Assembly (NCBI RefSeq): GCF_019904235.1
Contig: NZ_CP063202.1
Coordinates: 2,108,001-2,172,000 of the forward strand
Direction: 5' to 3'
DNA: 64,000 nt
DNA from: Erythrobacter sp. SCSIO 43205
GTDB lineage: Bacteria > Pseudomonadota > Alphaproteobacteria > Sphingomonadales > Sphingomonadaceae
Position 1 is the first letter of the stretch. Each line of letters opens with the position of its first letter. The position numbers were made by a program, and so were the translations under genes. Under the pieces are notes generated by a model, which made no database searches, was not told the origin of the DNA, and saw only the letters and a list, made by a program, of their open reading frames with translations. This document shows positions 32,232 through 34,132 of the stretch, piece by piece.

Positions 32232-33530
32232 TCAAAGCGTTGAATATTGGCCCATCTCTTTGGGATTGAGGCGCACCGTAATGCGGCGAAGAGGGCCCTG
32301 CTCCCCTTCCCCTGCATCTTCATCGACCAAAACCTCGCCATGAGCATGAAGCCAGGCGATGCGGCGCCCATCAGACACAGGAAGCGTGACGGTGACCTCG
32401 CTCGCTTTCTCAGTGAGTATTTCTGCAATCTGCGCCTGAAATGCCTCTAATCCTGTCCCTTTGGCGGCAGAGACAAGTACGGCACCCTGCCCCACAGCAG
32501 CCTCTTCAAGCTCCGCTTTGCGCTCGTCTTCCAGAAGATCTGCCTTGTTCCACACCTCAAGGATTGGAATATCGCTGTGCCCGGTTTCACCGTCCACAAC
32601 TTCGAGATCGGCCAAGACTTCCATCACCTGCTTTTTCTGTGCGGCGTGGGCAGGATTGGCCATATCGCGCACGTGACAAATGATGTCCGCTCCGGTCACC
32701 TCCTCAAGCGTTGCACGAAATGCGGCGACCAGCTGGGTCGGCAAATCAGAAATGAAGCCCACTGTATCTGATAAGATAGCTTTCTCGACACCTGGCAAGC
32801 TGATCGCACGCATCGTTGGGTCGAGAGTTGCGAAAAGCAAATCCTCCGCCATGACCTCAGCGCCGGTTAAGTGGTTGAAAAGCGTTGATTTACCTGCATT
32901 GGTATAGCCCACGAGCGCAATCACAGGCCAAGGCGCCCTGCCCCGTCGCTCGCGGTGCAATGCGCGGGTCTTGCGCACCTGCTCAAGCTCGCGGCGGAGG
33001 CGTCCCATACGCTGACGGATCATGCGCCGGTCAGCCTCGATCTGGGTTTCGCCGGGCCCGCCCAAAAAGCCAAAGCCACCCCTCTGCCTTTCGAGGTGGG
33101 TCCAGCTTCTTACAAGCCGGCTTTGCTGATAGTCGAGATGCGCCAGTTCGACCTGCAGCCGCCCTTCGGCCGTCGCTGCTCGCTCACCAAATATCTCGAG
33201 GATCAGGCCGGTGCGATCAATGACTTTGCGTTTGAGTTTGTCTTCAAGATTGCGCTGCTGGATCGGAGTGAGCGCCCCATCGACAATTACCAACTCACAA
33301 TCATGCTGCTCACAGGCGATCTTGATGTTCTCGACCTGCCCAGACCCAAACAAGGTGTTGGGTTGCATCTGGCGAACGGGCAGCACTTGAGAGTGCGCGA
33401 TGATCACACCGATCGCCAGCGCAAGTCCCTCTGCTTCTGCCAGTCTCTCCTGCGCATCAAGGTCGTAGGAGAAGCTCTTAACATCAGGGCATAGGATAAG
33501 TGAACGCGCCCCGCGCGTCACTTCGTCCAT
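32232..33530 (-). CDS. hflX: GTPase HflX
   Basis: HflX is a ribosome-associated GTPase that rescues stalled or heat-damaged ribosomes. The 432-residue protein has the N-terminal HflX domain with GSGQVENIKIACEQHD and the glycine-rich helix region GFLGGPGETQIEADRR, followed by the G domain: GYTNAGKSTLFNHLTG (G1), DTVGFISDLPTQLVAAF (G3) and VWNKADLL (G4). The ATG at 33530 lies 17 bases after the hfq stop; a TTG three bases before it is possible. The hfq-hflX pair is conserved in proteobacteria. Confidence 0.96.
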   Translation of the reverse strand: MDEVTRGARSLILCPDVKSFSYDLDAQERLAEAEGLALAIGVIIAHSQVLPVRQMQPNTLFGSGQVENIKIACEQHDCELVIVDGALTPIQQRNLEDKLKRKVIDRTGLILEIFGERAATAEGRLQVELAHLDYQQSRLVRSWTHLERQRGGFGFLGGPGETQIEADRRMIRQRMGRLRRELEQVRKTRALHRERRGRAPWPVIALVGYTNAGKSTLFNHLTGAEVMAEDLLFATLDPTMRAISLPGVEKAILSDTVGFISDLPTQLVAAFRATLEEVTGADIICHVRDMANPAHAAQKKQVMEVLADLEVVDGETGHSDIPILEVWNKADLLEDERKAELEEAAVGQGAVLVSAAKGTGLEAFQAQIAEILTEKASEVTVTLPVSDGRRIAWLHAHGEVLVDEDAGEGEQGPLRRITVRLNPKEMGQYSTL

Positions 33531-33547
33531 CAAGGTTTCGTCAAAGC

Positions 33548-34132
33548 TCAGTAGTCGCTCTCAAAATCGTCGTCCTCACCCTCGTAGTCGGGGTCATCGG
33601 ACAGGTCGACCGGGCTGGCAGGCTGAATGGTCGATACCGCGTGTTTGTAAGCAAGCTGGACCGCGCCATCGCGTTCGAGCAGCATACAAAACAGATCAAA
33701 GGCAGCGATCCTACCTTGCAGCATAACCCCATTCACAAGGAACATGGTCACTTCAACTTGAGAAGCGCTCACGCGGCTGAGAAACACGTCCTGAAGCAGG
33801 CGTTGCTTTCCCGAACCGTTGCGACTGCCAAATTGTTCGGCATCGACAGTTCCGCCAGGCATGATGGTCGAAATTGCGTGTTTGTAAACAAGCTGGGATT
33901 GACCATCGCGGCGCAAAAGTATCGAGAAATTATCAAACCATGTGACAATCCCTTGAAGTTTCACGCCTTTGACCAGAAACATCGTCACTGGTGTTTTGTT
34001 CTTGCGCAGCAGGTTGAGAAAAGCGTCTTGCAGATTGCCCTGCTGTTTTGCGTTACCCCCCGAGGAACGCGCAGCTGGTGCTGGAGACGGTTTTGATCGA
34101 GGGCGGGGAGAGAGAGTTCGCCCAGTGGACAT
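33548..34132 (-). CDS. hfq: RNA chaperone Hfq, two Sm domains in one protein
   Basis: Hfq binds sRNAs and mRNAs as a ring of six Sm-fold domains. Here one 194-residue protein carries two: domain 1 at residues 33-94 and domain 2 at 112-173. Domain 1 keeps [16 protein letters not shown], the lysine of GVKLQG and YKHAIST, so proximal, rim and most distal sites look intact. Domain 2 keeps LQDVFL and YKHAVST (proximal site), but the rim basic patch is replaced ([10 protein letters not shown]) and the distal lysine is Met (GVMLQG). Three copies could close a six-domain ring. An N-terminal basic Ser/Pro stretch and an acidic tail ([19 protein letters not shown]) flank them. A clear AGGAG precedes the ATG. 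Confidence 0.94.

Follow-up and report, generated by a model that had tools for sequence, protein, structure and literature searches.

The single hfq gene of Erythrobacter sp. SCSIO 43205 encodes a tandem protein in which the two Sm domains, D1 and D2, have diverged from each other in a consistent way. Judged from the aligned sequences, this asymmetry is real and is conserved in most of the source family (Sphingomonadaceae). The most constant change lies on the distal face, where alignment gives Lys31→Met in D2 together with Asn28→Lys in D1 (Escherichia coli numbering throughout for aligned positions). The fusion itself is already known; for the consistent split between the two halves we found no description in the literature searched.

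The tandem hfq gene

A single reading frame on the minus strand of the window (the whole 64 000-nucleotide stretch that was analysed) runs from an ATG at 34132 to a stop codon at 33548–33550 and encodes 194 residues containing two Hfq Sm domains. A previous inspection of the letters alone (the sequence-only reading) had described this frame and both of its domains without giving the strand, and profile searches agree with it. Pfam PF17209 matches the protein over two stretches (186.1 bits against a curated cut-off of 27; whole-protein E value 7.2e-56, best stretch 34–93), TIGR02383 scores 178.7 against a cut-off of 61.7, and residues 23–184 match NCBIfam NF010691, a model 176 positions long, with a score of 289.2 (cut-off 270). 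The chain (33548–34132) can be divided into an N-terminal extension (residues 1–32; 34037–34132), D1 (residues 33–94; 33851–34036), an interdomain linker (residues 95–111; 33800–33850), D2 (residues 112–173; 33614–33799) and an acidic C-terminal tail (residues 174–194; 33551–33613), the last 18 residues of which have a net charge of −10. The N-terminal extension is possibly a functional basic tail. It carries a TLSxRP motif that is common to many relatives; among 179 tandem loci, 121 gave a match to the pattern TLSxR(P), as did 21 of the 47 genus representatives, but not the one from Sphingomonas. An antisense open frame of 198 residues also overlies the gene (33500–34096, plus strand), which is a mechanical listing with no evidence of a gene.

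The 3.38 Mb source genome contains two PF17209 matches, and both fall inside the tandem gene, which is therefore the sole hfq. No second hfq gene that could supply normal subunits was found in it. The gene sits between ntrX (NF051870 match) and hflX (TIGR03156 match). The ntrC gene upstream scores 557.6 bits with TIGR01818, one bit below the cut-off, and two neighbouring sensor kinases were taken for NtrY and NtrB from their order and similarity. The nearest named relatives are Qipengyuania and Erythrobacter.

Distribution and origin of the fusion

The distribution of the fusion was surveyed in an order-level draw of 396 genomes, with tallies counted by hand from the survey table. Two Hfq matches were present in 300 of the 313 genomes from the source family, and the remaining 13, spread over seven genera, had one. 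Among the 83 genomes from other families of the order, 76 had one match, six had none and one (G001) had a cut-off second match; the fused pair was not shown in any of these 83. The second match in G001 (locus L117) is a 51-residue piece on another contig that stops at the contig end; it may come from a second gene, from a fusion or from contamination. A wider draw of 144 alphaproteobacterial genomes gave two matches in its three source-family members and in G443, where separate hfq matches lie on contigs C17 and C3, the second being the weaker (E value 2.1e-19). Among the 141 genomes from outside the source family, 120 had one match and 20 had none, and no Hfq fusion was found in any of the 141.

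Loci were then compared at the level of the individual domains. Both domains lie within one open frame at 179 of the 197 loci fetched, most of which had been picked for matching the tandem protein, and these provide 156 distinct domain pairs. Five of the 246 homologues listed carry three Sm domains (P0081, P0121, P0122, P0123 and P0125; 241–248 residues), with a middle domain that resembles a D1/D2 hybrid, the product to be expected of unequal crossing-over. Their contigs are no longer than 1621 bases, which leaves room for an assembly error, and three Hfq matches in one genome were not seen in the 396-genome survey. Novosphingobium aromaticivorans has been included among species with two hfq-like copies (PMC3474761).

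A domain tree was built from 57 D1 sequences, 57 D2 sequences, 17 single-domain proteins and E. coli Hfq. D1 and D2 each make up one side of a branch (support values of 97/91 and 98/95, from few columns, with 57 of the 156 distinct pairs included and with a bootstrap that had not settled). A supported split of this kind implies one duplication with no mixing among these 57 pairs, and the sequences thus indicate that the tandem domains arose once, by one old duplication in the source family. Eight single-domain family members that were fetched (L087–L094, from seven genera) fall outside the D1 branch; they therefore look like lineages that split off before the fusion rather than losses.

Further comparisons used the 142 distinct pairs from outside the genus Sphingomicrobium. 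Because kin of Erythrobacter are over-represented in this set, counts with one representative per genus (47 genera) are the more trustworthy. The 14 Sphingomicrobium pairs, whose genus was named after proteins P0240–P0242, are presented apart, although one of the least diverged of them (L062) represents the genus among the 47. D1 is closer than D2 to single-domain Hfq (mean identity 0.81 versus 0.63 over the 142 pairs), and D1 and D2 of the same protein share a mean identity of 0.59. Identity is higher between D1 domains (mean 0.92) than between D2 domains (0.83). The dN/dS ratio is about 0.10 for D1 and about 0.15 for D2 (1252 pairs from genera other than Sphingomicrobium, with 0.05–0.5 synonymous differences per site), indicating purifying selection on both.

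The basic rim

In E. coli Hfq65, annealing is hit hardest by loss of the basic rim residues, and above all of Arg16 (PMC5606850). Alignment to E. coli Hfq confirms the residues that the sequence-only reading had assigned to positions 16, 17, 19 and 31, namely Arg43, Lys44, Lys46 and Lys58 in D1 and Ser122, Ala123, Gln125 and Met137 in D2. The basic rim (positions 16, 17 and 19) is thus present in D1 of the tandem protein (Arg43-Lys44-Asn45-Lys46, positions 16–19; 33995–34006) and absent in D2 (Ser122-Ala123-Ser124-Gln125; 33758–33769). A further rim arginine has also gone: Arg74 of D1, which corresponds to Arg49 in the rim patch of Caulobacter Hfq (PMC6561178), is replaced by Glu153 in D2 (33674–33676).

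In the wider family, D1 has all three basic rim residues in each of the 47 genus representatives, whereas the D2 rim varies. D2 retains none of the three in 11 genera, one in 29, two in five and all three in two. By position, Arg16 is retained in 30 genera, Asn13 in eight, a basic residue at 17 in nine and one at 19 in four, while an acidic residue occupies position 17 in 27 genera and position 19 in 22. At the D2 position equivalent to Caulobacter Arg49, 36 genera have Glu (hand count). Few D2 rims have changed less than those of the Sphingomonas type (NAVRK). The rim loss that had been claimed for D2 therefore survives as a family-wide weakening, but not as a complete loss: 36 of the 47 genera keep at least one basic D2 residue at 16, 17 or 19, and the frequency of Arg16 rules out a D2 that always lacks the rim arginine. 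The rim has been discharged to varying degrees, so that the Ser-Ala-Ser-Gln of the tandem protein is an end state and not a family rule. Taken over the aligned sequences, D2 has a weakened rim throughout the family, and a rim with no basic residue left is confined to some lineages, including the source lineage. Since so many genera keep Arg16 in D2, this domain may not be annealing-poor everywhere.

The distal and proximal faces

The distal face separates the two domains more cleanly. At position 28 (Lys55 in D1 of the tandem protein; 33968–33970) all 142 pairs have Lys in D1 and Asn in D2, and all 17 single-domain proteins have Asn. Position 31 is Lys in all 142 D1 domains (Lys58 in the tandem protein, retained from the E. 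coli state; 33959–33961) and in the 17 single-domain proteins, and is Met in all 142 D2 domains (Met137; 33722–33724). The combination of Lys28 and Lys31 in D1 with Asn28 and Met31 in D2 occurs in 47 of 47 genus representatives, the tandem protein among them. This signature was noted in the present analysis and is outside the definition of NF010691; the sequence-only reading had picked up just its position 31 half. In 240 two-domain homologues that were retrieved by their likeness to tandem queries, every D1 has Lys28 and every D2 has Asn28, whereas position 31 is Lys (234) or Arg (6) in D1 and Met in 234 D2 domains. Position 63 is Gln in all 142 D2 domains, and position 38 is Trp in all 142 D1 domains and Ala in 129 of the D2 domains.

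The remainder of the distal site is shared. Both domains of the tandem protein keep the alphaproteobacterial residues at the ARN-site positions 25, 30, 32, 33, 52 and 61, and Phe25, Val30, Leu32, Gln33, Gln52 and Thr61, like the proximal residues Gln8, Lys56 and His57, are identical in both halves of all 142 pairs. The proposal that D2 had lost distal residues is thus borne out for Lys31 and contradicted for these six; loss of the distal site as a whole is ruled out, Lys31 being the sole distal change in the tandem protein. This lysine is exposed on the distal face of E. coli-type Hfq (PMC5606850), and in Pseudomonas Hfq it is the Lys31 backbone amide that contacts an RNA phosphate (PMC6422490). 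The replacement by Met would therefore drop a charge and need not break the A site. We infer that a ring of three chains would match ordinary Hfq in its number of distal lysines, six, but would have them paired on alternate units.

On the proximal face, the uridine-site residues Gln8, Phe42, Lys56 and His57 are present in both domains of the tandem protein, and Phe42 is found in both halves of the 142 pairs with the exception of one D2. The YKHA motif, reported earlier for both domains, is indeed in each, but the proximal site is not intact throughout, as D2 has Leu147 at position 41 (33692–33694). This position is Leu in 137 of the 142 D2 domains and Asn in all 142 D1 domains and in the 17 aligned single-domain relatives; E. 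coli has Gln41 here, for which a bond to uridine is likely (PMC4337610). The substitution suggests that the D2 uridine pocket is probably altered.

Sphingomicrobium departs from this pattern. All 14 pairs keep Arg16 and Lys28 in D1, and 13 have Asn28 in D2, but Met31 is found in only six D2 domains, the others having Leu, Arg (two), Ala (three), Gly or Ser. Ten of the 14 lack Gln33 in D2, where the helix region is shorter by at least two residues, and are almost tail-less, with 0–2 residues beyond the aligned domain. At loci L106–L111 and L113–L116 both domains have diverged fast, and D2 has lost helix residues and the C-terminal tail. His57 of D1 is replaced by Gln in five of these while His57 of D2 is kept, which is perhaps a reciprocal specialization of the domains. 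The variation at position 31 and the loss of the tail mean that neither the distal pattern nor gating by a tail is general in this genus. On these alignments the pattern that is fixed elsewhere has moved on in Sphingomicrobium, with D1 still the better preserved at the rim and the distal face.

Predicted structure, linker and tail

AlphaFold2 models were calculated for two lineages as single chains, a format that gives neither the ring stoichiometry nor the partners that each domain would have in a ring. The tandem protein (194 residues; 70-row tandem alignment) gave a mean pLDDT of 82.7 and a pTM of 0.72, with 57 residues below a pLDDT of 70, and a Sphingomonas relative (165 residues; 52 rows) gave a mean pLDDT of 89.7 and a pTM of 0.85. 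For a freely oriented pair of 60-residue domains we would estimate a pTM near half or less. Both values are too high for free orientation, and the relative placement of D1 and D2 is therefore predicted with confidence. The linker is 12–14 residues long at 164 of the 179 loci, and the C-terminal tail is net negative in all 47 genus representatives.

The 36 sequence matches in the PDB are chains of 63–114 residues with one matching stretch each. Structural searches with Foldseek (50 of 1119 matches listed) and VIA-align (50 of 654 listed) gave, among the matches listed, single-domain chains and no tandem structure.

Assembly of the tandem protein

Taken together, the sequences and monomer models make a pseudo-hexamer of three chains the likeliest assembly. 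In the explanation that we consider probable, three tandem chains would close one ring of six Sm domains in which D1 and D2 alternate. D1, with its full basic rim, Lys28 and Lys31 on the distal face and a canonical uridine pocket, would be the RNA-annealing half. D2 retains Gln8, Phe42, Lys56, His57 and the ARN-pocket residues, but its rim is weakened or acidic, it lacks a distal lysine and residue 41 of its pocket is altered; this half would mainly complete the ring and hold RNA. As the C-terminus of D1 is used as the linker, each chain has one free tail, giving three acidic tails per such ring. In Caulobacter Hfq the rim is contacted by the acidic tip of the neighbouring protomer (PMC6561178). 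By analogy, one acidic D2 tail may gate each strong D1 rim, pairing three tails with three rims. A more specific version, which we put forward only tentatively, is an obligate two-type ring of three-fold symmetry in which three gated and annealing-competent D1 rims alternate with three quiet D2 rims, the distal lysines still number six as in ordinary Hfq but have moved onto D1, and sRNA and mRNA are held in fixed register rather than on six equivalent sites.

The same three-chain ring could have come about through a neutral ratchet (constructive neutral evolution), in which D2, present together with D1 in every ring since the fusion, sheds residues that D1 still supplies; the halves would become dependent on each other with no new function and RNA would be handled as by ordinary Hfq. 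Much the same rim pattern would be left by such a process. The D2 rim varies between genera as relaxed sites would (Arg, Ser, Ala, Gln, Leu and others at 16; Glu, Asp, Gln, Lys, Arg and others at 17), D2 evolves faster than D1 in both identity and dN/dS, and position 31 drifts in Sphingomicrobium D2. We nevertheless regard the ratchet as rather unlikely, because Lys28 of D1 is a fixed gain, Met31, Gln63 and, almost always, Leu41 of D2 are fixed replacements in the main set, and an acid at D2 position 17 in more than half of the genera exceeds simple loss. Of these, the gained Lys28 speaks most strongly against drift alone.

An arrangement of stacked homotypic rings, with six chains forming one full annealing ring of D1 tethered to a rim-poor ring of D2, appears improbable. 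Ordinary Hfq is homohexameric, two Hfq rings form a head-to-tail dodecamer in Aquifex (PMC5379935) and the linker might bridge two rings, but AlphaFold2 predicts a fixed D1–D2 orientation in both lineages, which speaks indirectly for two domains of the same chain lying side by side in a ring. Nothing was found in support of a sequencing or frame artefact that fused two genes, an explanation that is practically impossible and is ruled out by the single open frame at 179 loci (156 distinct pairs) and by the existence of a curated two-domain NCBIfam model.

Comparison with known systems

Tandem Hfq was described in 2010 for ZMO0347 of Zymomonas mobilis, with the fusion also noted in six other Sphingomonadales species and with the question of whether three proteins would make a ring already asked (Yang et al., 2010; PMC2877685). 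This agrees with the sequence-only reading, in which a related sphingomonad has a tandem Hfq and the fusion alone may not be new. ZMO0347 likewise has two Sm-like domains per chain, for which a duplicate set of sites for interaction and for nucleotide binding was noted, but the main text of that paper, as far as it was available, does not set the rim, distal and proximal residues of the two domains side by side; its additional files, with motif and alignment figures, may hold more. No comparison of D1 with D2 was found in open-access titles and abstracts. The available portions of two papers on Zymomonas hfq (PMC9797736 and PMC7546472) yielded no mention of a second domain, and that of PMC13414033 nothing about Hfq domains. 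NF010691 (PRK14091, RNA chaperone Hfq) is a model of two-domain length that the tandem protein passes; as a naming model it is silent on what each half does.

The best relative of D1 by sequence in the PDB is Hfq from Caulobacter crescentus (PDB entry 6gwk; E value 3.8e-30), the rim residues of which (Arg18, Lys19, Lys21, Arg49 and Arg50) are the same in D1 (PMC6561178). Unlike the tandem protein, it has a single domain and forms a hexamer in which all six protomers are equal and tails and rims both number six (PMC6561178).

How many of its six equal sites an Hfq ring needs simultaneously is hard to probe, because a mutation strikes every subunit. A chain whose halves already differ in nature would allow just three sites of a kind to be mutated, be they rims, distal lysine pairs or pockets. 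The tandem protein would also be a case of a homomeric ring becoming a two-type ring inside one polypeptide, represented in 47 genera, with which the single-domain members of the family can be compared. If the proposed ring is correct, it would be a bacterial parallel to the eukaryotic Sm/LSm hetero-rings. These are likewise rings of non-identical Sm subunits that arose by duplication, but they are built from separate polypeptides and have seven members, whereas tandem Hfq carries two halves in each chain.
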